Part shown: positions 1 through 15,539 of the stretch, piece by piece
Position numbering within the stretch: the stretch's first letter is position 1
Layout of the letters: every line of letters starts with the position of its first letter
Made by a program: the position numbers and the translations under genes
Notes under the pieces: model-generated
Database searches by the model: none
Seen by the model: only the letters and a program-made list of their open reading frames with translations
Told to the model about the DNA's origin: nothing
IMG/VR virus record: IMGVR_UViG_3300025401_000526
Location: 1 to 20,064 of that record
DNA: 20,064 nt
Source of the DNA: a virus
Reading direction: 5' to 3' (one strand)

Positions 1-1437
1 CCAGAGACACTGTTTGTAGTATTTAGCACTAGTATCTTCCCTTACCGTATGCAGGATGTAGAAGGACAAAAGAAAGCAAGATTATTACAGGCCAGTTATG
101 CCAGGACTAGCTCACAGGATTTTTTAAAATTAGAAGATGAAGAATGGTATGCAAAAGGTTTACCACTACAGTTTGCCAACGGTAACAGTCTTCCTTGGTT
201 ACAGTATATTAAAGATCTAAATCCTAAGACCAAAATTGTCATGGGCGGCAGTAAGACTTGGGAATACTTTGGTACACCGTTAGTTGATAATTACTTTGTA
301 GGTATGGCCGAAACTATGTTTGTTGACTATGTATTAAGCATTAGTGGGCAAGGACCCAAACGCATCTTTAATACTATTGTGGACTACGATACTAAAGCTC
401 AGGGTAACAAAGAACAATTCAACTATGTCTACAGCACTACACGCTATCAGGAAGAAGATTTTATACAGTCGTACGAAGGATTAGGATTAGAAGTTGGCAG
501 GGGGTGCCGTTTTAGTTGCAGTTTTTGTACTTGGCCGTTAATAGGACAAAAGAATGTAGCTGATTACACAAAGACCCCGGAACTTATTCGTGAAGAACTT
601 ATAGAGAATTGGGAACGTTGGGGTGTATGGAAATACTACGTGACCGACGACACGTTTAATGACAGCACAGAAAAACTAGAAACATTTTTAGCTATTGTTA
701 AAAGTTTACCATTTAAGCCTGCGTTCTGGGGATTTTTTAGATTAGATCTAATAGCGAGTCACCCCGAACAAATGCAACTTATTAAAGACTGTGGATTTAA
801 AGATATTGTAGTAGGCATCGAAACGTTTAATAAAACAGCAGGTCGCGCAATTAAAAAAGGAGCAAGTCCGGATAAACTTAAACAAGCTCTGATAGATTGT
901 AAAGCAGTATGGGGCGGAGATGTGTTAATCAGTAGCCAATTTATCACAGGTTTACCGGGGGAAGATAGTGCCAGCGTTGCAGAATCTGTCGAATGGTTTA
1001 TGCGTGAAGATGCTCCTATCGATGCTATCGGTCTTGTTCCACTACGGCAGTATGCCCCGGATCCCTTAGATAGATATAAGGTCACTAGTCAATTTGAACG
1101 TGAAGCTGAAAAGTGGGGTTATAGTTGGCCTGACCCAATAAATCGCCCCTGGTATTGGGAAAAGAATGACGGTACTGATATTACCAACTACGATGAAGCC
1201 AAAGCGGTATCAGACTACTGGGAAGCTAGGCTAAGTACAATCAAACGCAAAGGTAAGTGGGTATTTAAACATACTGCATTTGATCACGGAGATTGGTCCT
1301 GGGAAGAGCTCGATTCACTATCATGGGAAGAGTATGAAAACGTACCGAAAGTCAGTGGAAATATGCTGTTAATATACAAGCAAGTTATGCGTGATTATTT
1401 TAATCCATTACTTAAATTTTTAAAGGATCGTAAATGA
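1..1437 (+). CDS. B12-binding-type radical SAM enzyme, 5' end cut by window
   Basis: The reading frame is open from base 1, so the true start lies upstream; the first internal Met is at 49. Counting from that Met, residues about 50-100 resemble the end of a cobalamin-binding Rossmann domain (a GGS turn near 66-68, then a GMAE stretch near 85-88), as in BchE/MiaB-like radical SAM proteins. The radical SAM cluster follows as Cys153-x3-Cys157-x2-Cys160, with a downstream GLPGED motif typical of Elp3-type TIM barrels. Such enzymes cleave S-adenosylmethionine on a [4Fe-4S] cluster and, when B12-dependent, often methylate unactivated carbons. The DxHxxG base-off motif is not visible because the N-terminus is missing, so cobalamin use is inferred. 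It overlaps the next gene by 4 bases (ATGA), suggesting translational coupling. Confidence 0.85.
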   Translation, partial: PETLFVVFSTSIFPYRMQDVEGQKKARLLQASYARTSSQDFLKLEDEEWYAKGLPLQFANGNSLPWLQYIKDLNPKTKIVMGGSKTWEYFGTPLVDNYFVGMAETMFVDYVLSISGQGPKRIFNTIVDYDTKAQGNKEQFNYVYSTTRYQEEDFIQSYEGLGLEVGRGCRFSCSFCTWPLIGQKNVADYTKTPELIREELIENWERWGVWKYYVTDDTFNDSTEKLETFLAIVKSLPFKPAFWGFFRLDLIASHPEQMQLIKDCGFKDIVVGIETFNKTAGRAIKKGASPDKLKQALIDCKAVWGGDVLISSQFITGLPGEDSASVAESVEWFMREDAPIDAIGLVPLRQYAPDPLDRYKVTSQFEREAEKWGYSWPDPINRPWYWEKNDGTDITNYDEAKAVSDYWEARLSTIKRKGKWVFKHTAFDHGDWSWEELDSLSWEEYENVPKVSGNMLLIYKQVMRDYFNPLLKFLKDRK

Positions 1438-2138
1438 AGCATATAACCATTTCACCTCAAGAAATTACACCCGACATTTTATATTGTAATGGCGATAGTT
1501 GGGCTTGGGGATCAGAGCTAGGTGATGAAAGCGAAGCACATAGATTAGCATATTCCTTTCCAGGCTTGTTATCAAAGCATTATAATTTACCGTTGTTAAA
1601 TTCTGCTTCACCAGGTGGTAGTAATCAAAGAATAGTTAGAACTACTGTTGAAGATATTAGTAGATTATTACTGGAAGGGCGTAAACCTCTTGTTATTATT
1701 ACATGGACATTGATACATCGTTTTGAATTGTTTAGTCAAGAAAAAAATAACTGGACTAACTTTTCAGCATCGACTCGTGGGGATGATCAAAAACTTGCTG
1801 AAAAAATTTGGACACGATATTCTTCCGATGAAACTGATGTTATAAATTTTTTAACTCAAGTAGTATTATTAGAATCATTTCTAAAGAAAAATAATATTCC
1901 TTACTTAATGCTTAACACGTTTGACACAAAGACGGTGTTGTTGCGCCAAGATATAAAAGACCTATTTGTATCACAAATGGATTTAACTTATTACATGGTC
2001 ACTATGGCATTAAGGCATTATGTAATGAACTTCCCTAATATAGATTGGGGTCCTGGTGATCATCCCCTGGAAAATGGACACGAGCTTGTGGCAGATTTTT
2101 TAAAAACGCATATCGATCTTAGATTTATATTAAAATGA
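1434..2138 (+). CDS. SGNH/GDSL-type hydrolase-like protein
   Basis: A 234-residue protein with block I of SGNH hydrolases, Gly20-Asp21-Ser22 inside NGDSWAWG, giving a candidate nucleophile Ser22. An SASPGGSNQRI segment near 58-68 could hold the oxyanion-hole Gly and Asn, and a C-terminal GDHPLENGH motif supplies the candidate Asp209-His210. The family includes esterases, acyl hydrolases and carbohydrate O-deacetylases; I recall similar proteins in marine T4-like phages. No signal peptide is seen, so it probably acts in the cytoplasm. It overlaps its neighbours by 4 bases on each side, between a radical SAM gene and an oxygenase gene, so it may add or remove acyl groups in the same pathway. 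The substrate cannot be told from sequence. Confidence 0.75.
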   Translation: MKHITISPQEITPDILYCNGDSWAWGSELGDESEAHRLAYSFPGLLSKHYNLPLLNSASPGGSNQRIVRTTVEDISRLLLEGRKPLVIITWTLIHRFELFSQEKNNWTNFSASTRGDDQKLAEKIWTRYSSDETDVINFLTQVVLLESFLKKNNIPYLMLNTFDTKTVLLRQDIKDLFVSQMDLTYYMVTMALRHYVMNFPNIDWGPGDHPLENGHELVADFLKTHIDLRFILK

Positions 2139-2680
2139 AATATATCGGAAATTACATAGATCAAATTCCAGCAGGATTAATTGATGCTGTATTAAACAAT
2201 GATGGTGAAATTACTCCGGTATATCAGCCTGAAAAATGGTCGGGTAAACCAGAATGGGACGCTGCCCGTATTGCTTTAGAAAATGCCGGCTATCCTAAAC
2301 TAGATTATCATTTTCATCAGTACACTGAAAATACAGAATGTATAAAACCGTTTTTAGATCAAATTGATTTTAAATTTAATCTACCTGACTTGCCACCAGT
2401 ACATCATTGGTGGATAGTTAAATACATGGGTGGGGATATGCAGCCTATGCATTTTGATCCGCATGTTATAGATACACAAGATTGTCAGCGTTATACTATG
2501 ATGCTAACAGATTTTGAAGATGGACACATATTTGTCTACGATGATGTGTTATTAAATAATTATAAGGCTGGCGATTTGTTTTTATGGCCTGATGCTATGT
2601 GTTTGCACGGTGCTGCAAATATCAGTATGAATCCCCGAATTAGTCTGCAGATGAGTTTTTATAATGAAATATCTAGGTAA
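2135..2680 (+). CDS. 2OG-Fe(II) oxygenase-like protein (R-type, copy 1)
   Basis: A 181-residue protein with the double-stranded beta-helix signature of 2-oxoglutarate/Fe(II) dioxygenases: His106-x-Asp108 in MHFDPH, distal His158 in CLHGAAN, and Arg168 ten residues later as the expected 2OG anchor. A YKAGDLFLWP strand precedes the distal His, as in prolyl-hydroxylase-like folds. Such enzymes hydroxylate, desaturate or otherwise oxidise C-H bonds using O2 and 2OG. The protein is similar along its whole length to the next gene (shared MKY-GN N-terminus, QP--W-G-PE segment, NYKAGDL strand), so the two are tandem duplicates. The start overlaps the SGNH stop by 4 bases and the gene runs 17 bases into the next one. 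Confidence 0.78.
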   Translation: MKYIGNYIDQIPAGLIDAVLNNDGEITPVYQPEKWSGKPEWDAARIALENAGYPKLDYHFHQYTENTECIKPFLDQIDFKFNLPDLPPVHHWWIVKYMGGDMQPMHFDPHVIDTQDCQRYTMMLTDFEDGHIFVYDDVLLNNYKAGDLFLWPDAMCLHGAANISMNPRISLQMSFYNEISR

Positions 2681-3239
2681 TTTTAAAGATTGGATTCAGC
2701 CAGAGCTACTAGAAAGAATAGTAGAAACTCAAGGTGATCCGACGCTGTTAAATCAACCACTGACATGGAAGGGTCACCCCGAACACGAAGCGTGGTATAA
2801 AACTTTTTGTGCAGCAGGTTACGATAAACGTAACTTTTACTCAAATATGTATAATCAGTATACTGAAGATATTAAGGACTTTGTAATAACACCACCTATT
2901 GATTTAGGGAATAAAACTTGGGATTGGTGGTTCATTAAATTCCTGCCAGGCTCAGTTGCTTGTATGCATTACGACCCACATACAAAGATTTATCAAACTG
3001 CTAAACGATACTGGATGGCAATGATGGATTATCATCCAGGCCATGTATTTGTATCAGAAGGGGGCCAGATGATGACTAATTATAAAGCTGGTGATTTATG
3101 GACTTGGGATCAGGCCGATCTAATACACGGAGTAGTTAATCTTAGCATGATACCGAGAGTGACTTTTCAATTTAGTACTCATGAAACCGATGATGCATAT
3201 CATAAACCTAAATTCTACATTGATCATAATTTAGATTAA
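2664..3239 (+). CDS. 2OG-Fe(II) oxygenase-like protein (R-type, copy 2)
   Basis: A 191-residue tandem paralogue of the preceding gene. The metal triad is His102-x-Asp104 (MHYDPH) and His155 (LIHGVVN), with Arg165 as candidate 2OG-binding residue and a matching NYKAGDLWTW strand. The C-terminus is about 15 residues longer than in copy 1. The start codon lies 17 bases inside the previous gene, consistent with coupled translation. Its TAA stop overlaps the stop of the convergent oxygenase gene on the other strand, leaving no room for a terminator. The substrate is unknown; retention of all catalytic positions in both copies suggests both are active and may oxidise different positions or substrates. 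Confidence 0.78.
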   Translation: MKYLGNFKDWIQPELLERIVETQGDPTLLNQPLTWKGHPEHEAWYKTFCAAGYDKRNFYSNMYNQYTEDIKDFVITPPIDLGNKTWDWWFIKFLPGSVACMHYDPHTKIYQTAKRYWMAMMDYHPGHVFVSEGGQMMTNYKAGDLWTWDQADLIHGVVNLSMIPRVTFQFSTHETDDAYHKPKFYIDHNLD

Positions 3240-3787
3240 TCGTAAGTCATCCAGTGTAATATAAACTTAGGAGTAAGTCCTACATTAGTTCCAGCATGCC
3301 ATAGTTTATAGTCACTCCACTCATACATGTTGCCGATGGCTTCATTATAGAAACACTGTTCTTCCATGGCAAGTATATGTCCCACCGCAGGCGGATCAAT
3401 GAATATCATAAAGCGACGAGTGTTTCCTAGTTTATTCCATTCTTCTTCATTATCATCAGTATCCCAATGCCATGGTGTACACCATCCGGGATCTATTCTT
3501 GCCAGCCATACTTTGATTGTTTTAACTTTTAATAAGTTTTCTAGTTTAACTATAACTTCGCTATCAAAGTCTTGTCCCGGGTAGTAGTTAATCCATTTGA
3601 TAGAATCAAAGTTAAAGTTTGCTCGCTCCCATAGATCTACCAGTTCTCCGTAGACCGGATTAGAATCCATCTTCCACTTGGATCTATCGGCTGTGACTAA
3701 CTTGCCCGGCTTATCGATAACTTCTGCTACAACTTTGTTCCAGTCAATGATATCTGCAGAATTACCTACAAATTTAACTTTACTCAT
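3236..3787 (-). CDS. 2OG-Fe(II) oxygenase-like protein (K-type, copy 1)
   Basis: A 183-residue protein with His107-x-Asp109 (PWHWDTDD) and distal His164 (LWHAGTNVG). At the place where the plus-strand pair has Arg, ten residues after the distal His, this protein has Lys174, so 2OG binding, if it occurs, would use a lysine. The N-terminal NSADIIDW segment and the RIDPG----WHWD and WHAG-N-GL-PK motifs are shared with the next upstream gene, which makes them a second tandem-duplicate pair. The start follows directly after the upstream stop (TAAATG), with a weak AGGAT Shine-Dalgarno a few bases before. It is last in block B and converges on the plus-strand oxygenase with a 4-base overlap. Substrate unknown. 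Confidence 0.75.
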   Translation of the reverse strand: MSKVKFVGNSADIIDWNKVVAEVIDKPGKLVTADRSKWKMDSNPVYGELVDLWERANFNFDSIKWINYYPGQDFDSEVIVKLENLLKVKTIKVWLARIDPGWCTPWHWDTDDNEEEWNKLGNTRRFMIFIDPPAVGHILAMEEQCFYNEAIGNMYEWSDYKLWHAGTNVGLTPKFILHWMTYD

Positions 3788-4300
3788 TTAATATCCTATA
3801 AAGTGATACATGTATTTCGGAACAAGGCCCATGTTGGCACCAGCATGCCACTCTCTAAAATTTGAAAATTCTACTATATCACCTACTTGGAAATTATAAC
3901 AAATTCTATTATCTACAATAAAAACATGACCAAATGAAAATTCGCTAATGTGTACAGAATATCTTTTTGGTTCTCGAGGCAGTGTTGCAATAGCAGGATT
4001 ATCAAAGTCCCAATGGTAAGGGGCCATGCATCCAGGATCTATTCTACTAATCCAAGATTCTACATGAGTCAACCCTAAGAACTTCTCCATCGCAGGAACA
4101 ACGTTATCATCGATTTGGAATGGTTCATAATTGAATACTCGAACGCCGGCAATATTCATATTAGCGTCCATCCATAACTTGTGGATTTCATTATAATCTT
4201 TCTTCATGGACCATTCTTCCGGTTTGATATATGCAGGAACTGCTGGATCCTTTAGGGTATCAATTACATGTTTCCAATCTATAATATTTGAACAATTCAT
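3788..4300 (-). CDS. 2OG-Fe(II) oxygenase-like protein (K-type, copy 2)
   Basis: A 170-residue protein when begun at the ATG at 4298-4300. The frame stays open to 4387, but the extra N-terminus is basic, unlike the paralogue, and overlaps the neighbouring gene; starting at MNCSNIIDW aligns with NSADIIDW of the paralogue, and a TATAAATA box lies four bases upstream of this ATG. The catalytic residues are His96-x-Asp98 (YHWDFD) and distal His152 (WHAGANMG), with Lys162 where Arg is usual. Length and motif spacing match a small double-stranded beta-helix oxygenase. It is third in the minus-strand block and may also have its own promoter, given the box and the 41-base gap before it. Confidence 0.75.
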   Translation of the reverse strand: MNCSNIIDWKHVIDTLKDPAVPAYIKPEEWSMKKDYNEIHKLWMDANMNIAGVRVFNYEPFQIDDNVVPAMEKFLGLTHVESWISRIDPGCMAPYHWDFDNPAIATLPREPKRYSVHISEFSFGHVFIVDNRICYNFQVGDIVEFSNFREWHAGANMGLVPKYMYHFIGY

Positions 4301-4304
4301 GAAA

Positions 4305-4312
4305 TATTTATA
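4305..4312 (-). promoter_or_regulatory. T4-late-type promoter box TATAAATA
   Basis: On the minus strand this reads exactly TATAAATA, the T4-like late promoter consensus, followed by TTTC and then the ATG of the oxygenase gene at 4300. Box and spacer are repeated almost letter for letter before the gene at 5702. Four bases between box and ATG leaves no room for a leader, so the transcript would be leaderless if this is a true late promoter. Confidence 0.5.
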
Positions 4313-4341
4313 TGATAATCTTTTGGTTGATAACAGTTTTA

Positions 4342-5034
4342 TTAAAATAGCTGTTTGTACATTTTTGGTAAAACATCGTCTGGCCACTTAACCCATGATT
4401 CTAATGCCTGTTTGAATAATATTTCAATATTAAGAACATCACCTTCTATCGCTGCTTCAAATCTAGGTCCCGACGTTTCACCGATCATACCTCGAATATG
4501 ATCTAATTTGACATACGGATCTCTTGCTCTAACACACCCATAAAAATCAAATGTACGCAATACTCCGTTATCAATAAAATAACAATGCGGATATAGACTA
4601 GTTTTATAGTATCCAGAATCAACTATGTCTTTTAAAATTGAAAACATTTGTTCTTTCCAATCGGGGCATTCTTCATCTAAACTACGCTCTGTATATACTA
4701 TTTGATTACAGGTTTCTCCAACCCAGCTGAAAAATATCTTTTGTTCTTCTGTGTCTATTGAAATATTTCTTGGAGCCCAAACTCTATCTTTGAATACTGT
4801 AAGATACTCAACTTCTCTATCGAAGAAAAATTTAACCATCTCTTTAGTATAGTACGGGCGATTAGGTAACCAGTGTGCTAGATCTTCATTTTGGTATTTG
4901 CTAGTATGATCAAAATGCATACAAAATACATTACCACTAGGACTTACTAGAGGAGTATATATTAAATTAGTTTCAATCAGATTATTATCTTCTGGATTGA
5001 TTTTATAAAAGGGATTCCAATTATCTGTATTCAT
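4342..5034 (-). CDS. Hypothetical protein, possible degenerate kinase-like fold
   Basis: A 230-residue protein that I do not recognise with certainty. The order of segments loosely follows protein-kinase/aminoglycoside-phosphotransferase proteins: an early strand region (YTPLVSPSG), an acidic helix with REVEYL, a hinge-like FFSWVGETC stretch, then KTSLYPHCYFIDNG followed by VLRTFDFYGC. The last part resembles a catalytic loop (HxDLxPxN) followed by DFG, but with Ser in place of the catalytic Asp and Cys in place of the metal-binding Asn. If the fold is right, it may be a pseudokinase or a nucleotide-binding scaffold. It lies between oxygenase genes, overlaps the upstream one by 4 bases (ATGA) and presumably serves the same pathway. 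Expression is well supported by context; the function is not. Confidence 0.6.
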   Translation of the reverse strand: MNTDNWNPFYKINPEDNNLIETNLIYTPLVSPSGNVFCMHFDHTSKYQNEDLAHWLPNRPYYTKEMVKFFFDREVEYLTVFKDRVWAPRNISIDTEEQKIFFSWVGETCNQIVYTERSLDEECPDWKEQMFSILKDIVDSGYYKTSLYPHCYFIDNGVLRTFDFYGCVRARDPYVKLDHIRGMIGETSGPRFEAAIEGDVLNIEILFKQALESWVKWPDDVLPKMYKQLF

Positions 5035-5702
5035 ACATCTATTGTTAGTATAAAATAATCTTTAGTCAACGCATCTAACTCATCTAAGCAGTCTACTTCT
5101 ATGGTAAGTTTTGCAATTAGATCTTGACCATCAAAGTCACTAACAATACCACGTTTGAACGCTCTATTCAACCACGGGCTAATAATATCATCAAATAAAA
5201 ATCTACGATCTGCTACGATATTTTTCAGCGTAATATGTACATCAATCGGATCTTTAAGAATATTAGTCGGTAGTAACTTCCTGACCACTAACTGCAATCT
5301 ATCTTCGCTGCCAAAATTAGCAGCAGTGTGTCTTACTCCGGCGTCCATACTATACCAACAGCCGTCTACTTTAGTTTGAAACATTTGATTATTTTCTAAA
5401 TCTATTAGATATGAATGATTACCGCAAATAGACAAATGCCATCGATCATCCATATCAGCATGACTAGGATATGCCTCACCCGGAGATAGTTTAATTAGTC
5501 TGGCTTCTCCTTTATCGCAAGCAATACTATCTAGAATCTGTTCCCAAACTGTGTTTTTAAACTCTGGTTTTATTTTCCAGGGATCTTTAAAGAATCTAGC
5601 ACTAGGTTGATTAAGAGCTAACCGTGCATCTATTTTGGGCAATAGACTAATTGCCTCTTGTAATAATTCGTTAGATATAGTATAATCAGTGAGCTCTAGC
5701 AT
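5031..5702 (-). CDS. 2OG-Fe(II) oxygenase, aspartyl/asparaginyl-hydroxylase-like
   Basis: A 223-residue protein with His81-x-Asp83 (PSHADMDDRWHLSI), distal His125 (VRHTAANFG) and Arg135 (EDRLQLVV). The arrangement 'SHxDxDxRxHL...G...D.G..H...N......R' resembles the aspartyl/asparaginyl beta-hydroxylase group rather than the four small oxygenases nearby. About 85 residues follow the catalytic core and have no recognised domain. It is the first gene of block B. Its ATG has no Shine-Dalgarno; instead CATAAATA sits four bases upstream. It overlaps the kinase-like gene by 4 bases. The substrate could be a protein side chain, but this is inference from the family. Confidence 0.75.
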   Translation of the reverse strand: MLELTDYTISNELLQEAISLLPKIDARLALNQPSARFFKDPWKIKPEFKNTVWEQILDSIACDKGEARLIKLSPGEAYPSHADMDDRWHLSICGNHSYLIDLENNQMFQTKVDGCWYSMDAGVRHTAANFGSEDRLQLVVRKLLPTNILKDPIDVHITLKNIVADRRFLFDDIISPWLNRAFKRGIVSDFDGQDLIAKLTIEVDCLDELDALTKDYFILTIDV

Positions 5703-5706
5703 GAAA

Positions 5707-5714
5707 TATTTATG
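5707..5714 (-). promoter_or_regulatory. Late-promoter-like box CATAAATA
   Basis: The minus strand reads CATAAATA, then TTTC, then the ATG at 5702. It differs from TATAAATA in one base and has the same 4-base spacing as the box at 4305-4312. It lies inside a 38-base divergent spacer that also holds a plus-strand version. Confidence 0.45.
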
Positions 5715-5721
5715 TGCTAGT

Positions 5722-5730
5722 ATTATAGTG
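5722..5730 (-). promoter_or_regulatory. Sigma70-like -10 element (CACTATAAT)
   Basis: The minus strand reads CACTATAAT, containing a perfect TATAAT at 5722-5727, upstream of the block B start. No good -35 is present: TTGTGG lies 19 bases upstream and TGGTTT 16 bases upstream, both poor. The same nine bases recur in the other two divergent spacers, where a perfect TTGACA is present. Confidence 0.35.
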
Positions 5731-5736
5731 TAAATA
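5729..5736 (+). promoter_or_regulatory. Late-promoter-like box TGTAAATA
   Basis: The plus strand reads TGTAAATA, then ATTC, then the ATG of the aminotransferase at 5741. The spacing is again four bases and no Shine-Dalgarno is present. The match to TATAAATA is one base off, so on its own it would be weak; the repeated geometry makes it credible. Confidence 0.35.
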
Positions 5737-5740: not shown

Positions 5741-6595
5741 ATGAAACCACAACGTGTTGCTCCTTCATATGATTCCAAATGGCTAGAGATAGATCGTCCT
5801 CAACCATTATCTGATCTTAGGATTGAGCAACTGCAACAAGATGTATTAAACGGAGTCCTGGATAAAGACATTACTGATCAAGTCTATATCAATTTTAAAA
5901 AAGAAATGACGGCATGGTTATTTGCCAGTAAACTTAATAATATCACTGGGTTTGATAAATTTGACCGTGTTGATATTATAAATGGTTGTACACAATTTAT
6001 CGATGCTATCTATATGCAAGGGCCTGTGCAGACTCTAAAGGGCGATTATAGATATCACGCTAGACTAAATCCTAATTTAGTTTACAGTATACCGGGATAC
6101 TTACGTCGAGACTTACCGTTAATTATTGCCATGCCCTTTCCCGGTACAGGAGCAGTCTATGATCAAATGACGGAGATATTAGATGAATGTTTGGATAAAG
6201 AAATTCCGGTCCATATTGATGGCGCTTGGATTACTTGTTGTAGGGATATTGTTTTCGATGTCGGGCATCCTGCTGTTCGTAGCGTTGGTATCAGCCTCAG
6301 TAAAGGTTTGGGTCTAGGTTGGAATCGTGTAGGATTGCGTTGGACTAAAAGTCAGGATCCAGATGCTGTTACTATTATGAATGACTTTAATATGAATCTC
6401 CGTGCACCTGCGATGATTGGCTTACACTTCTTACGTAATCTTCTACCAGACTATTTGTGGAATACTTACGGCGATACTTACTATAAGATATGCAAGGACT
6501 TTGATCTAACACCAACTAAGAGCATTTACCTTGCTCTTAAAGATAACCAACCAGTGGGACTAAGTCCTCTAATAAGATATGTTGCCAAACAGTAA
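5741..6595 (+). CDS. PLP-dependent aminotransferase, fold type I, short form
   Basis: A 284-residue protein with the core of class I/II aminotransferases. NGCTQFIDAI near 81-90 looks like the cofactor-phosphate loop, PFPGTG near 132-137 like the NPxNPTG loop, Asp160 (VHIDGAW) would bind the pyridine nitrogen, and Lys188 in SLSKGLGLGWNRVG is the candidate Schiff-base lysine with Arg196 after it. The family transfers amino groups between amino acids and oxo acids or oxo sugars. At 284 residues it is about 80-100 shorter than usual, mainly at the C-terminal small domain that normally binds the substrate carboxylate, so its substrate may be unusual. It is first in block C and overlaps the next radical SAM gene by 17 bases, which suggests a common pathway. 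Confidence 0.8.
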   Translation: MKPQRVAPSYDSKWLEIDRPQPLSDLRIEQLQQDVLNGVLDKDITDQVYINFKKEMTAWLFASKLNNITGFDKFDRVDIINGCTQFIDAIYMQGPVQTLKGDYRYHARLNPNLVYSIPGYLRRDLPLIIAMPFPGTGAVYDQMTEILDECLDKEIPVHIDGAWITCCRDIVFDVGHPAVRSVGISLSKGLGLGWNRVGLRWTKSQDPDAVTIMNDFNMNLRAPAMIGLHFLRNLLPDYLWNTYGDTYYKICKDFDLTPTKSIYLALKDNQPVGLSPLIRYVAKQ

Positions 6596-8736: not shown

Positions 8737-9711
8737 TAAATGTGTTTCTGGCGGGCATACACATCTATTAATAGTGCAGATGCTAGGTGATAGTTGCGGA
8801 TTAAAAATACTAATAAATTGCTTGTCTAAGATATTATATCTTGTATTATTAAAAATTAATTGACCACAACTACCTTTTAACTCACCGTCAAAATCTATAT
8901 AGACTGACTCCACTCCGATTGCACATTCCCATCCCTTAAAATTATTTTCTTGTGTAGTTATATAATATTGAGAAGTAGCTCGGCGCTTCTTACCATTAAC
9001 TGTATATTTGCTTTCAAATAATTTAACGTGTCCTTTAAACAATAAATGAAGATTTTTTAAAATCCATATTATGCTAGGAAATCGTTTAAGCTCATATTTA
9101 AAAAAGTTTCTTTGTTTATCTGTATACGAGATGTTAACTCGAGAAGTAGAAACTAACTCTTTGGTTTGAATCATCCAACGATATTTGCTGTTTGCTTTGA
9201 TATAATTTACACTTGCAACACATTCATCCCAGTGCTGATCATCCATTAACACATGAACTGTAACTTTTTTACCATACGCATGAATAATATCAGCAACATT
9301 AATAGTATGATCTAAATCAGCAAATTGTTGATGATAACTTAAAATTAAATTATCAATTAACATACCGTTTTCTTTCCACCATCGTATTGTTCGAGATCCA
9401 TTTGAAACAACACTAACATATACATTATGTTCTTTTTTAATTCCTCTAATAAATTTATCAAGGTCTTTATACATAGTAGGCTCGCCGCCTAGTATTTTTA
9501 AATCAAATACTTCTTTACCGGCATATTTGCTATAATAATCTAGCATGTAATTAAAATTTTTAATTAATAAATCAACATCTGTTGGGCTTGGATAATTTCC
9601 TTCATTACTACCCGGAAAACAATATCTACATTTAAAATTACAAACGTTGTTCAAAGCCCATCGAAGTTCTAATCTATTACGGGGTTGTGTTGATTCAATC
9701 CGAGTAATCAT
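8626..9711 (-). CDS. Radical SAM enzyme with C-terminal twitch/SPASM-like cluster, extended tail
   Basis: A 361-residue protein. The radical SAM motif is Cys24-x3-Cys28-x2-Cys31 (CNFKCRYC), GGEP is at 75-78, and the C-terminal cluster cysteines are Cys263, Cys282, Cys312, Cys317 and Cys319. The core aligns with 7837-8736, but that family normally ends about ten residues after the last cysteine pair; here the frame continues for roughly 30 more residues, read from the antisense strand of the neighbour's C-terminal codons. The tail (about residues 330-361) is therefore probably not functional sequence but the result of a lost stop. The gene is last in block D and starts with a 4-base ATGA overlap with the preceding twitch-type gene. 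Confidence 0.85.
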   Translation of the reverse strand: MITRIESTQPRNRLELRWALNNVCNFKCRYCFPGSNEGNYPSPTDVDLLIKNFNYMLDYYSKYAGKEVFDLKILGGEPTMYKDLDKFIRGIKKEHNVYVSVVSNGSRTIRWWKENGMLIDNLILSYHQQFADLDHTINVADIIHAYGKKVTVHVLMDDQHWDECVASVNYIKANSKYRWMIQTKELVSTSRVNISYTDKQRNFFKYELKRFPSIIWILKNLHLLFKGHVKLFESKYTVNGKKRRATSQYYITTQENNFKGWECAIGVESVYIDFDGELKGSCGQLIFNNTRYNILDKQFISIFNPQLSPSICTINRCVCPPETHLSKSNLSQRNVGSTRTIIPITDNRIYRNSKVSLVDIT

Positions 9712-11126
9712 AGTAAATGTGTCAACTCGGGGAATGTAATTTTAAAATCAGTTTTACGTTGTGCATCCATTGTATTAATGTACTCACGGAAATCTGGTAG
9801 TAAATTAGTATGATCTTCTGCGTCCATCCAGTCTAGTATACCTTCCCAGCGACGCCATCCATAGGGATTAACTTCCCAGAACTCTGCATCTTGTGTATAG
9901 TTGTCCCATAACCATTGCTGTAGTTCAGAAAATAGTTCACGTACTTCTGCCTTATCTTCTTTAGGTAATACACGTAAACTTAACCAAGTAGGAATCCATA
10001 GCAAGTGTACACCTACTAAACCTCCACCCATTACATGTCCCGCGGCATTCTTATCAAAGTTAACTTTCTTAAAATTCATACGCACTTTCCATTTAATAAA
10101 ATCCGGAACGTGCATAATGTTTAGTATCTGTACAGCCATGGCAATGTTAGTCTGTATGTTGTCTGGAGCATTATCTAACTTAATTAAATTTTCTTCTACT
10201 GTCTTCCAATCTAAGGGATAGCGTATATACTCACCGCGCGGTCCTATACCGTCTAAACTAACACCTACTTTTACTTTACGGAATTGGCTCCATATATCAA
10301 TTATTTCATCATTGACTAGTATACCGTTAGTATTATACCGTAAACTAATTTGGCTAGCATAACCACGTTTGATAATTTCTAAAAGAAATACCTTATGTTC
10401 TTTTATGAGCAACGGTTCACCACCTGCAAAATACAACTGTTTAATGTTGGGAATTTGATCATAGACTTCTTCCCAGAACTCGGGATTTTCATGCCAGCTG
10501 TTGTTGTGCATTTTTTTATCCCAGCCCATTTGTTTTTTAATTAACGGACTTTGAAAGAGCGGATATACTTTTTTATGTTCGGGAGTCCATAAACTACTAT
10601 CGTGTGGACTACACATAATACATTTGAGATTGCAAGTATTTCCCAAGCGAAGATCTAAATACTGTAACTTATAAGGTACAGAACCGTCTGCTTGCGTTTC
10701 TGCAATTAATTCTTTAATATCGATTTTTTCTTGTAAATGCCAGGTGCCTGTTTCCCAGATACGCTTACTGGCAACACCTTGTTGTTCTTCTTGATAGCAT
10801 TTTAAACAGCTAGCTGGCACTTCACCAGCTAACATTGTTTTACGCACCGATCGCATATAGTTGTTATTAAATGCCTCAGTGGGCAAATCATGCCCAAAAT
10901 TAGCAGGAGTACCATCTTCCTTTTTAACAAGCCCCACATCGTACTCACCACTATCGGCACCTGACGCATTTGCCACGCAGCATATACGCATATCACCATT
11001 AGGGCGGGTGGCCAGATGTATCCACGGTAGGACACAAAAGCTAGGACTTCCGGTTAGCTCGGTAATTTGTTTTTGCCAATCACCTAGTTGGGTTGTTTCG
11101 GGCTGTAGCCAAAATACCTTATTCAT
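9708..11126 (-). CDS. Radical SAM enzyme with N-terminal twitch-like cysteine cluster
   Basis: A 472-residue protein with the same layout as 6579-7844. The N-terminal cluster cysteines are Cys31 (FCVLPWIHL), Cys49/Cys50 (RICC) and Cys107/Cys110 (CLKC). The radical SAM motif is Cys165-x3-Cys169-x2-Cys172 (CNLKCIMC), and an FAGGEP motif is further on. It is about 50 residues longer than its relative, partly from an acidic insert between the ICC and CLKC motifs. It is second in block D, overlaps the upstream gene by 8 bases and the downstream one by 4. Like 6579-7844 it is immediately followed by a short C-terminal-cluster radical SAM gene, which suggests the two proteins of each pair work together. 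Confidence 0.88.
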   Translation of the reverse strand: MNKVFWLQPETTQLGDWQKQITELTGSPSFCVLPWIHLATRPNGDMRICCVANASGADSGEYDVGLVKKEDGTPANFGHDLPTEAFNNNYMRSVRKTMLAGEVPASCLKCYQEEQQGVASKRIWETGTWHLQEKIDIKELIAETQADGSVPYKLQYLDLRLGNTCNLKCIMCSPHDSSLWTPEHKKVYPLFQSPLIKKQMGWDKKMHNNSWHENPEFWEEVYDQIPNIKQLYFAGGEPLLIKEHKVFLLEIIKRGYASQISLRYNTNGILVNDEIIDIWSQFRKVKVGVSLDGIGPRGEYIRYPLDWKTVEENLIKLDNAPDNIQTNIAMAVQILNIMHVPDFIKWKVRMNFKKVNFDKNAAGHVMGGGLVGVHLLWIPTWLSLRVLPKEDKAEVRELFSELQQWLWDNYTQDAEFWEVNPYGWRRWEGILDWMDAEDHTNLLPDFREYINTMDAQRKTDFKITFPELTHLL

Positions 11127-12210
11127 TAAATGTGTCCAGGTCTACAAATTGATCGCGGCATTGACTAATAACAGCATCGGGAAACTTACCACAAGTTCTT
11201 ACACAGACATGTAGTTTATCACCTTCAAAGGATTCGTCCCACTGACTTTGCCATTCAGGACTATCTACTATTTCCTGAACAGACCTCTTACGTAAATTTA
11301 ATTGTTCAATACCTTTAAATTTTTCTAGCAGTCTATTAAGGCTTGATTTACTATCTGTTTGAAAATCATGAACAAGTTGTTGTTCTGTTGTATGTATATA
11401 TGGAGTGGCTCCAACAAAGCAACAAGGCCATAGGTATCCTAGTGCATCTATATATACACTATTAAGTTCTTCAACTTCACATTTAATTGTTGCACTAGCA
11501 ACTAATTCTCTATAGTTTTCTACAGTCTTTTTATCTACAAACACTAATTTTTGTTCCGTTGGATTTTCTAATCGATGGGTTACATTCCCATTTTTATCGT
11601 AAGCATCAAACCAAGGGTTACCTATAAAGCGGCTAGTTTGCTTTTCATAGAAGCTATCAAATCCTAAATCCTTAGCCATCTGTCGGGCGGTTTCCAATTG
11701 ATGTTCGTTGTGTCTAAATGTAATAAAGTTCCAGCGAGCTTTGCCGCCAGCATTAATAAATGTTTTAGCATTGTCAATGATTTTATTAAAGTCCGTCCCC
11801 ACACGATACAGTGCGTGAGTATCTTCCAATCCATCAATACCAAATTGTACAAGATGATTGTCGGGTAATGCTGCGGCTAATTCTGCCCACCACTTAGTCG
11901 AACGTAGGCTTCCGTTAGTATGTATATCAATCCTAATATTAGGATTGTTCATAGTAATATATTTGACAATATTAAGTAAGTCATTATTAAGCAATGGATC
12001 ACCGAAGTTTCCACACATTGTTATAGTGTGTAATTGTTCTACAAGCCTGCTAGGAATCATTCTAATAAAGAATCTAAGATCAATATCTTTAACTTTGAGC
12101 AAGGGATTATCTTTGCCGCCGTGATGATTTCTAGCGCACATAGGACAACTGGCTTGACAATTTGAACTAAGTTCAACGTGAAGGGCGCCTATTTCTTTAA
12201 ATTTATACAT
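11119..12210 (-). CDS. Radical SAM enzyme, CARNxHGG group (copy 1)
   Basis: A 363-residue protein. The radical SAM motif is Cys18-x3-Cys22-x2-Cys25 (CQASCPMCARN), close to the N-terminus. The GGEP position reads NFGDP (68-72), so the glutamate is replaced by aspartate. IDIHTNGS and FGIDGLED strands follow as in SPASM-type barrels. C-terminal cysteines at 244, 263, 264, 336, 340 and 351 (PCC and CVRTC) form a SPASM-like auxiliary set. It is very similar to 12888-14003 along its length. It is first in block D, with a TTGACA-N18-TATAAT promoter a few bases upstream and no Shine-Dalgarno. I have seen this type in marine phages but know of no defined substrate. Confidence 0.85.
   Translation of the reverse strand: MYKFKEIGALHVELSSNCQASCPMCARNHHGGKDNPLLKVKDIDLRFFIRMIPSRLVEQLHTITMCGNFGDPLLNNDLLNIVKYITMNNPNIRIDIHTNGSLRSTKWWAELAAALPDNHLVQFGIDGLEDTHALYRVGTDFNKIIDNAKTFINAGGKARWNFITFRHNEHQLETARQMAKDLGFDSFYEKQTSRFIGNPWFDAYDKNGNVTHRLENPTEQKLVFVDKKTVENYRELVASATIKCEVEELNSVYIDALGYLWPCCFVGATPYIHTTEQQLVHDFQTDSKSSLNRLLEKFKGIEQLNLRKRSVQEIVDSPEWQSQWDESFEGDKLHVCVRTCGKFPDAVISQCRDQFVDLDTFNE
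11928..11947. repeat. 20-bp perfect palindrome inside coding sequence
   Basis: The arm CAATCCTAAT is followed at once by its exact reverse complement ATTAGGATTG, with no spacer. It lies within the radical SAM gene at 11119-12210, where it encodes part of the NPNIRID strand. The paralogue at 12888-14003 has no such palindrome at the equivalent place. Confidence 0.6.
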
Positions 12211-12230
12211 ATCATCATATTTATTTAAGG

Positions 12231-12260
12231 ATTATAGTGGCATAAATATTCTTATGTCAA
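12231..12260 (-). promoter_or_regulatory. Sigma70-like promoter TTGACA-N18-TATAAT for block D
   Basis: On the minus strand TTGACA (12255-12260) is followed by 18 bases and TATAAT (12231-12236), both perfect consensus hexamers, with CAC before TATAAT. Transcription would begin near 12224, giving a leader of about 14 bases to the ATG at 12210. The -35 lies over the start codon of the divergent oxygenase gene. Confidence 0.7.
12241..12248 (+). promoter_or_regulatory. Late-promoter-like box CATAAATA
   Basis: The plus strand reads CATAAATA, then five bases, then the ATG at 12254. It is the same box as at 5707-5714. It lies within the spacer of the minus-strand sigma70-like promoter, so the two would compete for this DNA. 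Confidence 0.4.
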
Positions 12261-12895
12261 CTACTATTAATTTATTTCCAGTTCCTATATCCATATTCGA
12301 ATCACCCGAATTACCCGTAGACACTATGGATTTTATAAAAAACAAATTAGAATATATGCCATGGCATAGTAAAGAAAACCACTATCTTGATATTTCAAAA
12401 TCATTTCAAGTATTAACCGATTGTCAAGAATTGGCACAGCTAAAAGCAAATACAATTAACATTGCAAACACGTACTGGAGAGACATATTATGTGTAGATT
12501 TGTCTTTAAGTATTAGCATTAAGCATAGTTGGATTACAAGACATAAACCTGGTCAATATAATAGACCCCATATACATAATAATTGTGTGTTTGTATTAAC
12601 TACTTACTTAGATACATACGAAAACTGTGGTAATCTTATTTTTAAGAAGAATACTCATTATTTAAATTTATTCCCTGCTATGCTAGATGTTGAATATCAT
12701 ACTACAAATTTAATTAATTGCAAAGATTATTCAATAACTCCTAAAAACAATATGACTGTTTGCTTCCCTAGCCATTTAGAACACGAAGCCGAAGTTAACA
12801 ACAGTGGACAAAATCGTTTTTGCTTAACTGCTGATTTCTTTATACGAGGTACAACAAATAGGGCCGGTCGCGGATTCGATACGTATTTTAATTAA
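12254..12895 (+). CDS. 2OG-Fe(II) oxygenase, TIGR02466-like
   Basis: A 213-residue protein that follows the plan of the phage/cyanobacterial TIGR02466 oxygenases. SWITRHKPGQYNRPHIHNN (92-110) corresponds to the family's W-N-x-H-x-x-G-x-x-N-x-P-H-x-H region with metal-ligand candidates His106 and His108. NLIF (127-130) matches the G-x-L-x-F strand, and PSHLEHEAEVNNSGQNR (172-188) supplies distal His177 and Arg188. The reaction is presumably an O2/2OG-dependent oxidation of unknown substrate. It is the only gene of its block, with a CATAAATA box five bases before the ATG and no Shine-Dalgarno. Its last 8 bases overlap the convergent radical SAM gene. It is not closely related to the other five oxygenases here. 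Confidence 0.78.
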   Translation: MSTTINLFPVPISIFESPELPVDTMDFIKNKLEYMPWHSKENHYLDISKSFQVLTDCQELAQLKANTINIANTYWRDILCVDLSLSISIKHSWITRHKPGQYNRPHIHNNCVFVLTTYLDTYENCGNLIFKKNTHYLNLFPAMLDVEYHTTNLINCKDYSITPKNNMTVCFPSHLEHEAEVNNSGQNRFCLTADFFIRGTTNRAGRGFDTYFN

Positions 12896-14003
12896 AACGT
12901 TCTACATAAGTGTCTTGATCTTCCATAGTGGAAAAAGGACTAGATGCACTACACATCTTAATACATACATCAGAATCTTTATCCTTCCATTTCTTCTGCA
13001 TAATTGTTTGCCACATCTCCGATTCAAGCAAACTTTTAATGTCTACTTTACTAGCATCAATAGCATCAAATCCACCCATATCATTTACCAGTTTTGAAAA
13101 ACTTTCATTTAATCCAGTGCCGGCATCATAGTTTGACACTGAATCGTAGACGTTGTACTGTTTATAATATTCTTTATTATAATCAATATTTAAATAGGTT
13201 AACGATCCCATAATGCAACAAGGCAGGGTTATGTAGTTTGCGTCAATATAAATTTCTCTATTCTTTTTAACATAGCAATGGATTTCATCAGCTTTATCCC
13301 ATTTTTTAAAATTATCAAAGTCTCCCTTCTTAATAAATTTGATAGGAGCAGAATCTGAAGATTCTAAGTAATGTGTAACAATACCATCTCTATCTAGTAC
13401 TTTAAATGGTTCGTCACCGTGCCTGCGGCTAGTTTTTAATGAAAATGCTTTGAATCCAATATCCCTAGCTCGTTGTTTAGCTTCCTCAATTTGATGTTGA
13501 TTATGTTTAAACTGTATAAACTGCCACGTTGCATAGCCACCTGCTGCTATAAAAGTCTTTGCGTTCTTTATAACCATATCATATGTCACGTTAACTCTGT
13601 ATAGGTGATTAGTATCTTCTAATCCATCTAATGCAAAAACTACGCTATGATTGAATGGCATTACTGTTGCTAATTCTGCCCACCACTTAGAATTTCGTGC
13701 GCCACCATTAGTAAAAATACTAATGAATATAGCTGGATTAGTTGTCTTAACATAATCGCACATGGCAATTAAATCTTTATTAAGTGTGGGCTCTCCAGCA
13801 GTTCCTGCGAAATCAATAGATTTAATCTGTAACAATACTTCTTTATTAAAAATTCTTTTGAAATCATCGAGAGACCAATCATTTAACTTCATTATAGGAT
13901 TATCTAACCCACCATGCACGTTTCTTGCACAAAGTGGACAGGCTGCTTGACAGCGATTAGTTATTTCAATTTGAAGAGCGTTTAGTTCATTAAATTTAAA
14001 CAT
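12888..14003 (-). CDS. Radical SAM enzyme, CARNxHGG group (copy 2)
   Basis: A 371-residue protein, closely similar to 11119-12210. The radical SAM motif is Cys18-x3-Cys22-x2-Cys25 (CQAACPLCARN), and the GGEP position reads TAGEP (68-72), so the glutamate is retained here. FALDGLED and the C-terminal cysteines 243, 262, 263 (LPCC), 347 and 351 (CIKMC) follow, a SPASM-like auxiliary set. It has an extra stretch near 275-300 relative to copy 1. It is last in block F: its start overlaps the methyltransferase-like gene by 8 bases and its stop overlaps the convergent oxygenase by 8. The two copies now sit in different transcription units with different partners, which suggests divergence in substrate. 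Confidence 0.85.
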   Translation of the reverse strand: MFKFNELNALQIEITNRCQAACPLCARNVHGGLDNPIMKLNDWSLDDFKRIFNKEVLLQIKSIDFAGTAGEPTLNKDLIAMCDYVKTTNPAIFISIFTNGGARNSKWWAELATVMPFNHSVVFALDGLEDTNHLYRVNVTYDMVIKNAKTFIAAGGYATWQFIQFKHNQHQIEEAKQRARDIGFKAFSLKTSRRHGDEPFKVLDRDGIVTHYLESSDSAPIKFIKKGDFDNFKKWDKADEIHCYVKKNREIYIDANYITLPCCIMGSLTYLNIDYNKEYYKQYNVYDSVSNYDAGTGLNESFSKLVNDMGGFDAIDASKVDIKSLLESEMWQTIMQKKWKDKDSDVCIKMCSASSPFSTMEDQDTYVERFN

Positions 14004-14592
14004 GTTTGTAGCCTATTAACATATAACGATTATACAACTGTGTAGGTAACTCGCCACTCCACAGTACATTTATATTACTTTGTTTTTGAAAATCACCGAG
14101 ATCATTGGCCCATCGAACATGCTCCGGAATATCGTAATTGTTACTTTGTAGTACCAGCAGACTTGAGTCTGGTAAATTTGATAACCATTTATCGTACTGC
14201 TCCTGTGTGATGTGTTCACAACTGGTATTAATTATGATATCGCTTGTAGACTCCACTTCGCACATGTCAGCGGTAACAGCCTTAAAGTATCCGTCTTGCT
14301 CTTCTATCTTATTCATCATTGTGGCGATCGGCTGGCATGCCGGATCTATGTCTATACTACGCAGATATTTAATTGCGATATCACTTTGAAATAAAAGACT
14401 GGCCAAGACACCTACCCATCCTCCGTGAATATCTATACTCACGGCATTAGCAACATAGGGTTTAATATTGTCTATTAACCATTCTTTGCTTTTAATTTGC
14501 CCTTGCCAAAATGCGTCCATAGTTCTCATAGGATCTGGACTTTGTCGGATGGCCTGCATCCAAAAATGTAAGTGTTCGGTATCTATTTGCAT
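13996..14592 (-). CDS. Class I SAM-dependent methyltransferase-like protein
   Basis: A 198-residue protein with a Rossmann-type methyltransferase pattern: DIHGGWVGVLASLL (54-67) as motif I, RSIDIDP (78-84) with an acidic residue ending strand 2, TADM near 108-111, and DIIINTSCEHI (118-128) as the strand-4 region that usually carries the catalytic or substrate-contact residues. It would transfer a methyl group from SAM, but the acceptor is not evident. It lacks the DPPY/NPPY motif of amino-DNA methyltransferases and the PC motif of cytosine-C5 enzymes, so DNA base methylation is less likely. It sits between two radical SAM genes in block F and overlaps both by 8-10 bases. Confidence 0.7.
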   Translation of the reverse strand: MQIDTEHLHFWMQAIRQSPDPMRTMDAFWQGQIKSKEWLIDNIKPYVANAVSIDIHGGWVGVLASLLFQSDIAIKYLRSIDIDPACQPIATMMNKIEEQDGYFKAVTADMCEVESTSDIIINTSCEHITQEQYDKWLSNLPDSSLLVLQSNNYDIPEHVRWANDLGDFQKQSNINVLWSGELPTQLYNRYMLIGYKHV

Positions 14593-15539
14593 TTTGGTAC
14601 CTTGCTATCTGCTGAGCTAACACATCTGGTAGTTACACATTTTTTAGGGTTGGAAAACAAAGTAAATTTTTCTATTGTGCCCAAAGATTCTTCTTGACAA
14701 CTATATGCTCGTTTTACTTCGTCACCTCTTATTATAACACTTTGGTATCCGCTGTTGCAAGTCCAATCAGTAAACTGATTAAAACCCAACGCATTAAATC
14801 GTTCTGCTTGATCGATATAATAATCTTGATGACCGTCTGTTAATCTAATCTGATAACCTTCTTGTTGTTCAAAGTCATCTTGCATGATCTTGATCATTTC
14901 GGGAGTATATCCATCTACGATAGCAGTTGCAGTATCATTGCTTTGTGGTTTAAGTGTTACATTAATTCCTTTGGAACGTAACCGATTACAACGTTCTAGT
15001 GTTTCATAAAACTGTTCAGGAACCATTACTTGATTAACTGTAACATATACTCCTTCGTAAATCAACTGTAGACATTTGTCACCAAACTCTTGCTCTTTAG
15101 CAAACTCTGCATGAAAACTAGCTGTGATACTACGACGCTGTAATAAAGCTGTATTAGTACACCATGTCTTCCACCATTTTGATCCCGGACTCAAATTGGT
15201 TGTCATGTGTATGCTTTGATAGGGACTTTCTGTTTCATCTAGATGTTTTACTAAATCGGGCAGTTGCTTGTATGCTGTAGGTTCGCCTCCGCTGAATGAC
15301 CAGTGAAATTGAGTAAATCCATTTTGGCGAGCTTGACGTTTAATCTCATCTATTGCGTGAGTATAGACTTCAAATGGCTGATAGTCCATTTTGTCACTGC
15401 GAGCATAGGGCCAGCAATAGCTACATTTATAATTACAAAAACGGCCCAATATCCAACTCGTGTTAAATAATGGACGATCCAGCATGGTTTGCTGTCCAAA
15501 ATATGTAATCTTATCGAAGGGTATTGTAGAAAATTGCAT
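14583..15539 (-). CDS. Radical SAM enzyme with C-terminal twitch/SPASM-like cluster
   Basis: A 318-residue protein, the third member of the short C-terminal-cluster group. The radical SAM motif is Cys35-x3-Cys39-x2-Cys42 (CNYKCSYC), SGGEP is at 83-87, and auxiliary cysteines are Cys261 (WTCNSG), Cys281, Cys301, Cys306 and Cys317. It has about 11 more N-terminal residues than its relatives. Other Met codons lie further in, but MQF at 15539 preserves the N-terminal strand and follows a promoter-like region. It is first in block F and overlaps the methyltransferase-like gene by 10 bases. It probably acts on a peptide or protein, by analogy with SPASM/twitch enzymes. Confidence 0.86.
   Translation of the reverse strand: MQFSTIPFDKITYFGQQTMLDRPLFNTSWILGRFCNYKCSYCWPYARSDKMDYQPFEVYTHAIDEIKRQARQNGFTQFHWSFSGGEPTAYKQLPDLVKHLDETESPYQSIHMTTNLSPGSKWWKTWCTNTALLQRRSITASFHAEFAKEQEFGDKCLQLIYEGVYVTVNQVMVPEQFYETLERCNRLRSKGINVTLKPQSNDTATAIVDGYTPEMIKIMQDDFEQQEGYQIRLTDGHQDYYIDQAERFNALGFNQFTDWTCNSGYQSVIIRGDEVKRAYSCQEESLGTIEKFTLFSNPKKCVTTRCVSSADSKVPKCK

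Follow-up and report, generated by a model that had tools for sequence, protein, structure and literature searches.

Interchangeable clusters of radical SAM (rSAM) genes have been on record in phages since 2010, with no product assigned to them. In the T4-like Campylobacter phages CP220 and CPt10, rSAM and amidinotransferase genes form interchangeable clusters (PMC2853527), swappable units of 10-12 genes that include five rSAMs along with glycine-amidinotransferase-like and NDP-sugar-transferase-fold genes. Jumbo cyanophages of the S-SSM6a type carry 8-12 sugar- and amino-acid-modifying genes, including a halogenase, several 2OG oxygenases and a methylase, with a predicted role in capsule decoration or metabolite production (PMC7824862). 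Pelagimyophages, which also have curli genes, possess hypervariable host-recognition clusters of tail fibres and glycosyltransferases, and two related phages differ in this region by rSAM gene cassettes (PMC7029224). Beyond the systems named here, we found no closer rSAM-rich phage system in the literature. Multi-step tailoring chemistry of the kind described below is rare in a virus.

Genes of the island

We analysed a 20,064-nt phage fragment (referred to as the window), most of which is occupied by an island of putative tailoring enzymes. Counts out of 41 refer to loci of at least 14 kb selected by gene M.

A, 1..1437, + strand: rSAM protein of the B12-rSAM-like subfamily (PF04055, 9.5e-16), 5'-truncated by the window edge
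B, 1434..2138, + strand: SGNH/GDSL-like protein, DUF6071 (PF19547, 3.7e-17)
C, 2135..2680, + strand: 2OG-Fe(II)-oxygenase-like, family CD, invariant HxD..H over 18 sequences
D, 2664..3239, + strand: 2OG-Fe(II)-oxygenase-like, family CD, same 18-sequence alignment
E, 3236..3787, - strand: 2OG-Fe(II)-oxygenase-like, family EF, invariant HxD..H
F, 3788..4387, - strand: 2OG-Fe(II)-oxygenase-like, family EF, probably beginning around 4300 in reality
G, 4342..5034, - strand: kinase-fold protein, profile match to protein kinase TTK (E 1.4e-6)
H, 5031..5702, - strand: Asp/Asn-hydroxylase-like oxygenase, core (PF05118, 5.8e-5; 38/41 loci)
I, 5741..6595, + strand: small fold-type-I-like PLP enzyme, core (38/41 loci)
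J, 6579..7844, + strand: N-terminal-twitch rSAM, core (NF033640, 326 bits; 41/41 loci)
K, 7837..8736, + strand: rSAM with C-terminal Cys cluster, core (PF04055, 8.8e-16; 41/41 loci)
L, 8626..9711, - strand: rSAM with C-terminal Cys cluster (PF04055, 1.1e-10), frequent but not universal (30/41 loci)
M, 9708..11126, - strand: N-terminal-twitch rSAM, core (NF033640, 402 bits; 71 relatives)
N, 11119..12210, - strand: SPASM-type rSAM, family NP (PF04055, 5.5e-11; family NP in 41/41 loci)
O, 12254..12895, + strand: accessory 2OG-Fe(II) oxygenase (PF13759, 4.5e-13; phrog_81, 8.4e-31)
P, 12888..14003, - strand: SPASM-type rSAM, family NP (PF04055, 7.2e-9)
Q, 13996..14592, - strand: class I SAM-dependent transferase, core (AF2 pLDDT 94)
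R, 14583..15539, - strand: rSAM with C-terminal Cys cluster, core, at the island edge (PF04055, 5.6e-13)
Boundary RNA, 15574..15681, + strand: tRNA-Leu-like, without anticodon, 3' CCA encoded, in the phage backbone

As in CP220 and CPt10, several rSAMs lie in a swappable phage cluster, here with eight rSAMs and with empty as well as occupied sites. The CP220/CPt10 rSAMs match the island profiles for K and for family NP (E 1e-15 to 1e-30), and only these NP/K-type rSAMs match well; no homologue of R, Q, M, I or H was detected there as best match, oxygenases are not annotated, and the cluster is about half the size of the island. The S-SSM6a cluster is built around carbamoyl transferases and rSAMs are unmentioned in PMC7824862, whereas the island is rSAM-dominated, with no carbamoyl transferase among the Pfam and NCBIfam matches of its part in the window. 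For pelagimyophages, no conserved multi-enzyme rSAM core is described in PMC7029224. The sequenced jumbo Vibrio phage K566 (OZ196521) carries five twitch-rSAM-type proteins among glycosyltransferase-like genes, matched by the M and J profiles down to 6e-24, but no match to R, Q, I or H and no oxygenase-rich periphery were seen in it. Homologues of Q, I and R were likewise not found when phage records were searched by megablast with the whole window and at the protein level. A bacterial counterpart is the Bdellovibrionales MAG HKST-UBA04 (JAGQZY010000009.1 and a second contig), in which I and Q are grouped with two M-type rSAMs and a pair of family-27 genes (see below), and the second contig holds R (444 bits), an H-like gene and another copy of I. 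It differs in that ordinary bacterial genes follow further along the contig, and K and the large accessory set were not found. A first scan with the PLP family had returned no bacterial homologue of I; the two copies in this MAG came from a later profile search.

All eight rSAM proteins of the original prediction proved real and correctly placed, each above the PF04055 curated cut-off (best E 1e-18). The 170-bit cut-off of N_Twi_rSAM (NF033640) was passed by J and M, the remaining rSAMs falling below it. Protein A, which is 537 aa long in the related contig G006, comes nearest to PhpK/HpnJ-type NCBIfam models, all far below cut-off, and every NCBIfam RiPP-maturase match of the window rSAMs is also far below cut-off. 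K and L are convergent and overlap by 111 bp. The six predicted oxygenases are likewise supported, H and O by Pfam and the other four by an invariant HxD...H triad, which in 18-sequence alignments corresponds to H106/D108/H158 in family CD and H107/D109/H164 in family EF; neither family has a Pfam, PHROG or NCBIfam match of note.

The proposed SGNH hydrolase is borne out as an SGNH-like protein (B) by its DUF6071 match. Protein I has no real Pfam match, and its assignment as a PLP-type protein holds through an invariant lysine, K188 in SLSKGLGLGWNR, and an invariant aspartate, D160 in HIDGAW. Q, anticipated as methyltransferase-like and having at least 598 relatives in IMG/VR, has the predicted fold of a class I SAM-dependent enzyme. 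Its best Foldseek match is the nicotianamine synthase MtNAS (1.5e-10), followed by ChlM and others; since generic class I methyltransferases score nearly as well, nicotianamine synthase is a lead only. The kinase-like protein G retains its resemblance to TTK, but in our own alignment to the kinase motif (A1) the position of the HRD aspartate is Ser or Thr throughout. With this catalytic residue missing, we rejected an active kinase; G is probably a pseudokinase.

Conserved core, changing cargo and the insertion site

Independent contigs match the window at about 100% identity, and the window is therefore not a chimeric assembly. The genes form a phage-borne multi-gene unit, as predicted: the island recurs in more than 140 IMG/VR loci, and its genes, far from being unique to this locus or degenerating, are under purifying selection (dN/dS 0.03-0.16 where measurable). 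Its richness in rSAMs is not due to chance, since all 20 relatives checked hold 7-14 rSAM genes. The description as a complete multi-step pathway was too strong. The window covers only part of the island, which extends about 3.7 kb past its left end with more oxygenases (including TauD), a second kinase-like gene and a GNAT-like gene, for a size of about 20 tailoring enzymes, at least six oxygenases and the eight rSAMs being in the window. Moreover, only a core is conserved, the remainder being variable cargo.

This core comprises the four rSAMs R, M, K and J together with Q (SAM-dependent transferase), I (PLP enzyme) and H (oxygenase), usually accompanied by a family-NP rSAM. Almost every locus of 14 kb or more has it (R in 26 of the 27 such loci selected by Q), whereas L, O, A, B, CD, EF and families 13, 14, 18 and 19 vary. 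The accessory enzymes comprise oxygenases, SGNH proteins and PP-loop proteins, the latter (family 14) frequent in relatives. The relative G001 adds a tryptophan halogenase, a class-III aminotransferase, SDR-like genes and an amidinotransferase, an enzyme absent from the window, whose nearest match is StrB1 (8e-24), then HsvA and others. A phage IscU occurs in only 5 of 10 contigs, which is suggestive but not diagnostic of iron-sulfur supply by the phage.

Judged from its sequence context, the island is carried as cargo at an insertion hotspot, a fixed genomic spot in T4-like jumbo freshwater phages. Occupied sites span 21-35 kb and empty ones 0.2-2.4 kb: the distance from a phosphoesterase gene to the boundary RNA is 20.9 kb in G006, 28.1 kb in G001, 30.6 kb in G003 and 34.8 kb in G008, compared to 0.2-2.4 kb in L200, L202, L206, L209, L212 and L221. 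On the other flank in G006 lies a virion-type gene with an Mtd_N-like match (1.7e-4, below gathering) and a virion-protein PHROG match, and in L225 the boundary RNA is directly adjacent to an Mtd-like ORF. The variable cargo thus adjoins a gene of tail or receptor-binding type, as in the hypervariable host-recognition regions of T4-like phages.

The island offers a defined core, several families without a Pfam match, and occupied and empty sites that allow natural comparison. Since the sequenced isolates Phosso, K566 and CP220 have related rSAM clusters, and a version of the core exists in a bacterial genome, viral use of radical chemistry becomes directly testable by mass spectrometry.

Candidate products of the island

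Our leading, still tentative, reading is that the hotspot cargo is a modular biosynthetic cassette whose product group would be displayed on a surface glycoconjugate, either of the virion tail or of the infected cell. The core enzymes would work one after another on a single residue (amino acid or amino-sugar), which accessory oxygenases, SGNH protein, halogenase, amidinotransferase and others would decorate in various ways. Such variation could pay off by helping the phage to recognise hosts, to exclude superinfecting phages or to escape being recognised. In favour of this reading are the conserved core with its changing periphery, the occupied and empty sites, the Mtd-like neighbour, the low dN/dS and the enzymes added in G001. 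While no glycosyltransferase is present in this window's island, family 27, a GT-A-type protein with DxD, is the immediate upstream neighbour of R in 11 loci and adjoins M, I and Q in the Bdellovibrionales MAG; its Foldseek matches have low TM-scores (0.35-0.44). A HAD and MobA-like NTP-transferase fusion adjoins one island, and a Q homologue sits in a glycosyltransferase-type cluster of Mesorhizobium. Further links to sugars come from K566, where twitch rSAMs alternate with glycosyltransferase-like genes, and from CP220, where rSAMs accompany NDP-sugar-transferase-fold genes. Among the products originally proposed, these glycosyltransferase-like neighbours in relatives favour a modified surface sugar, and hypermodified DNA has lost ground (see below). 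Assignments to glycosyltransferases and tail genes in K566, sinorhizobiophage Phosso and G006 are mostly our reading of the sequences.

Direct modification of side chains on a tail or receptor-binding protein, RiPP-like but without a small precursor, is possible though doubtful. SPASM and twitch rSAMs often modify polypeptides, an Mtd-like tail gene adjoins the island, and in Phosso largely unrelated rSAMs are interleaved with tail-type genes, with no obvious glycosyltransferase among them, an arrangement that fits direct protein modification equally well. Substrates of twitch and SPASM rSAMs also include sugars and nucleosides, so that the general expectation of a peptide substrate from extra cysteine clusters was too broad. 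As originally noted, no precursor peptide is apparent: none fits the islands across loci, 98.96% of 1.42 Mb consisting of ORFs of at least 100 aa, and recurring intergenic small ORFs were rejected as candidates because they trace to the translated tRNA-like RNA or to known flank genes. This weakens a dedicated RiPP pathway and agrees with modification without a separate precursor; nor was a RiPP leader found. Against direct protein modification, the core is also found on a contig of a bacterial MAG where no structural gene is visible, and the amidinotransferase, class-III aminotransferase and NTP-transferase of relatives belong more typically to pathways for sugars or small molecules. The halogenase, amidinotransferase, class-III aminotransferase and SDR-like genes of G001 would suit a phage-borne biosynthetic gene cluster for a diffusible secondary metabolite acting on competitors or host. 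The nicotianamine synthase match of Q and the metabolite alternative proposed for S-SSM6a (PMC7824862) point the same way. We consider a metabolite unlikely, as neither an exporter nor a self-resistance gene nor any enzyme that would form a scaffold (NRPS, PKS) was recognised, and a slow metabolite would be of little gain to a lytic phage unless infection is long.

Compared to surface display, hypermodification of DNA or RNA is highly improbable. PLP and rSAM enzymes do take part in thymidine hypermodification, and PP-loop proteins are common in relatives, but no thymidylate-synthase-family gene was found in G001 (270 kb) or G024 (332 kb), which weakens this reading. The search covered large relatives, the window's own phage being known only as fragments; the gene found in G023 may be an ordinary one. 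No base-hydroxymethylase or nucleotide kinase was recognised in the island, and accessory genes as extremely variable as these would not be expected if a DNA base were the target. Unrelated moron genes gathered by chance, without a joint pathway, would suit a hotspot with variable cargo, yet this seems just as improbable given the low dN/dS and the recurrence of one core, locally in order, across dozens of contigs and in a bacterial MAG.

A tRNA-like RNA at the island boundary

The RNA next to R adjoins it in 49 of 64 testable RNA-selected loci, an association that allows a very unlikely variant: the island would make a new class of combinatorially varied phage molecule with this RNA as aminoacyl carrier or donor, the RNA-tethered amino acid being tailored by rSAM, PLP and oxygenase enzymes. 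A part for the RNA in the chemistry of the island, suspected from its position, was largely rejected because it persists at sites without an island (10/64) and because, in G023 and G024, its candidates lie far from the island. ARAGORN and Rfam were silent on the window copy. The RNA is nonetheless a conserved, covarying, undescribed and unclassified tRNA-like family in its own right, whose 48 aligned members have, in place of the anticodon arm, hairpins that differ in length and loop.

Enzyme content and extent of the island

The original prediction had placed eight radical SAM (rSAM) proteins and six oxygenases in the window, and both sets held up. All eight rSAMs (A, J, K, L, M, N, P and R) score above the PF04055 cut-off where they had been predicted, J and M being N-terminal-twitch rSAMs that lie far over the NF033640 cut-off. 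Oxygenases O and H match Pfam, while C, D, E and F, which form two families (CD and EF) with no significant match in Pfam, PHROG or NCBIfam, keep an HxD...H triad that is invariant in both families (18 relatives each). Pfam offers no real match for the PLP-type protein I; 18/18 of its relatives nevertheless keep the lysine and aspartate that a fold-type-I enzyme should have. A high-confidence model of Q shows a class I SAM-dependent enzyme. G matches protein kinases at the profile level and is read as a putative pseudokinase because Ser/Thr occupies the catalytic-aspartate position throughout the alignment of its relatives. The convergent K and L genes overlap by 111 bp (window 8626-8736), with the rSAM domains of both intact.

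The window is one entire virus record of 20,064 bases. The same genes occur in identical order, at 99-100% identity, in contigs from other samples (L009 and L013); the window is therefore not a chimeric assembly. In the 73.7-kb contig G006, the island extends about 3.7 kb past the left edge of the window.

Features at the island borders (several of the GT-, SDR-, GNAT-, IscA- and curli-like labels used in the text are our own sequence readings, where no profile match is cited)
G006, island genes left of the window: family 13 (HxD...H), Asp/Asn-hydroxylase-like, second kinase-like, GNAT-like, TauD oxygenase
G006, after these genes: Mtd_N-like virion-type gene and calcineurin-like phosphoesterase gene
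Window 15574-15681, + strand: boundary RNA, a tRNA-like sequence with an encoded 3' CCA and without an anticodon arm; 48 distinct versions beside R, the rSAM at the island edge

Two small flanking proteins (window 15704-16033 and 16830-17483) carry HExxH-type motifs (HETRH and HEFRH) and are possible metallopeptidases; the start of the 15704-16033 protein resembles a signal peptide.

Conserved core and insertion hotspot

The close relatives are all contigs from metagenomes. M as query retrieved 71 loci, and Q at least 598 relatives, from which 80 loci were retained. The genes co-occur in other phage loci: K, J and an rSAM of family NP (the family of N and P) are each present in 41/41 M-selected loci of at least 14 kb, followed by I and H (38/41 each), Q (35/41) and R (34/41); R and Q occur in 26 of the 27 Q-selected loci of that length. 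Around this core, the presence of L, G, CD, EF, O, A, families 13, 14 (PP-loop), 18 (SGNH-like) and 19 (B12-rSAM-like) and others varies, with 7-14 rSAM genes per contig in the 20 contigs checked. The island of G001 (270 kb) has an additional tryptophan halogenase (PF04820, 2e-83), a StrB1-like amidinotransferase (8e-24), a class-III aminotransferase and SDR-like genes. Compared with its closest usable relatives, the window has dN/dS values of 0.03-0.16 (unsaturated synonymous sites only).

Scanning IMG/VR with the D arm of the boundary RNA yielded 75 further loci, none selected via a protein. Of these, 64 extend 800 nt or more to the island side: R lies within 120 bp in 49, another island family is found on that side in 5 and no island family in 10. 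The phosphoesterase gene is 0.2-2.4 kb from the boundary RNA at six island-free sites versus 20.9-34.8 kb in G006, G001, G003 and G008, so the island is cargo, with the boundary RNA on one side of it and the phosphoesterase-side backbone on the other. It is carried by T4-like jumbo phages (gp23 match, E 1e-81); in the sequence of their capsid protein they share 81% identity with Sinorhizobium phage Phosso and 76% with Pseudomonas phage PA5oct.

IscU-like scaffold genes (PF01592, 2e-54) adjoin an IscA-like gene at G006:67403-67789 and G001:50134-50523; IscU, detected in 5/10 contigs, possibly supplies Fe-S clusters to the many rSAM enzymes. The window's phage (G006) also has 24 tRNA genes within about 9.4 kb (L081:8277-17687), a tmRNA gene (L082:2123-2555, tag AKANTFKYMQVDVALNDDAFALAA) and, by eye, apparent curli-type genes (CsgG-like, CsgF-like and a curlin-like repeat protein; G006:50807-55939). 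Curli genes are known from pelagimyophages as well (PMC7029224).

The boundary RNA

Pairing in the 7-bp acceptor stem reaches 99.5%, 5/7 pairs are changed on both sides, and the covariation score of the whole structure is 0.230 versus 0.112 in shuffles, 0/500 of which reach 0.230. The D arm resembles that of tRNA-Leu, as which four of five high-scoring ordinary tRNAs checked were identified, and hairpins that vary in both length and loop replace the anticodon arm. Neither ARAGORN nor Rfam detected the window copy. Pattern-found copies score 70-119 bits in a covariance model, apart from one truncated by the end of its contig, and ordinary tRNAs no more than 43 bits. Because the RNA is retained at island-free sites, and divergent candidates of about 50 bits in G023 (L323:1063-1170) and G024 (L324:1019-1119) lie far from the island, we regard it as part of the phage backbone and as a finding separate from the island. 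ARAGORN calls the G024 candidate tRNA-Pro(ggg), probably a forced reading.

Related clusters and the island product

Phages CP220 and CPt10 have 11-12 rSAMs per genome; their interchangeable clusters of 10-12 genes include five rSAMs and an amidinotransferase (PMC2853527). Jumbo cyanophages such as S-SSM6a have 8-12-gene clusters with a halogenase and 2OG oxygenases, for which capsule decoration or metabolite synthesis was proposed (PMC7824862), and the rSAM cassettes in the hypervariable host-recognition cluster of pelagimyophages differ between related phages (PMC7029224). Likened to these clusters by sequence rather than by product, the island would operate in the same manner. However, it has few genes in common with CP220, does not carry the S-SSM6a core and contains far more rSAMs, and we thus see it as a variant of its own within this kind of cluster.

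Homologues of Q, I and R are absent from INPHARED. Q occurs in at least 2 of 84,980 bacterial and archaeal species genomes (a lower bound from a pattern-based scan); in Mesorhizobium sp. CA8 it lies, by our own ORF reading, amid glycosyltransferase-type genes. The Bdellovibrionales MAG HKST-UBA04 (L194, L198) carries a version of the core on one contig (27, 27, M, I, Q, M); a separate 5.3-kb contig has R, another I and an H-like gene, and ordinary bacterial genes stand further along the longer contig. Family 27, which sits immediately upstream of R in 11 phage loci, has an invariant DxD motif, and the structures that Foldseek places near it are of the GT-A type, at modest TM-scores.

Sequence comparison demonstrates the composition, core, variability, hotspot and selection of the island, whose enzymes would act serially on one substrate. 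One of the products originally proposed, a modified peptide, has become less likely as far as it would need a dedicated precursor: ORFs of at least 100 aa make up 98.96% of the islands and the recurring small ORFs correspond to the boundary RNA or flank genes, so no precursor fits. Of the three largest relatives, two lack thymidylate-synthase homologues. In three lineages, analogous rSAM clusters have sugar-type enzymes as neighbours (family 27 and an HAD/NTP-transferase fusion here, GT-like genes in Vibrio phage K566, proteins with NDP-sugar-transferase folds in CP220), and beside the hotspot lies a tail-type gene. For these reasons we tentatively favour a product that decorates a surface glycoconjugate over direct modification of a virion protein by the island enzymes, which we consider rather unlikely, and over a diffusible metabolite, which ranks just behind it.

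In the sequenced isolate Phosso, several rSAM genes lie amid tail-type genes (L318:7871-20396), near a giant virion structural gene; they are largely unrelated to the island core. The K566 cluster (L317:1325-18692) interleaves five twitch-rSAM-type genes with GT4/GT8-like genes, and one member carries only a hypothetical annotation.
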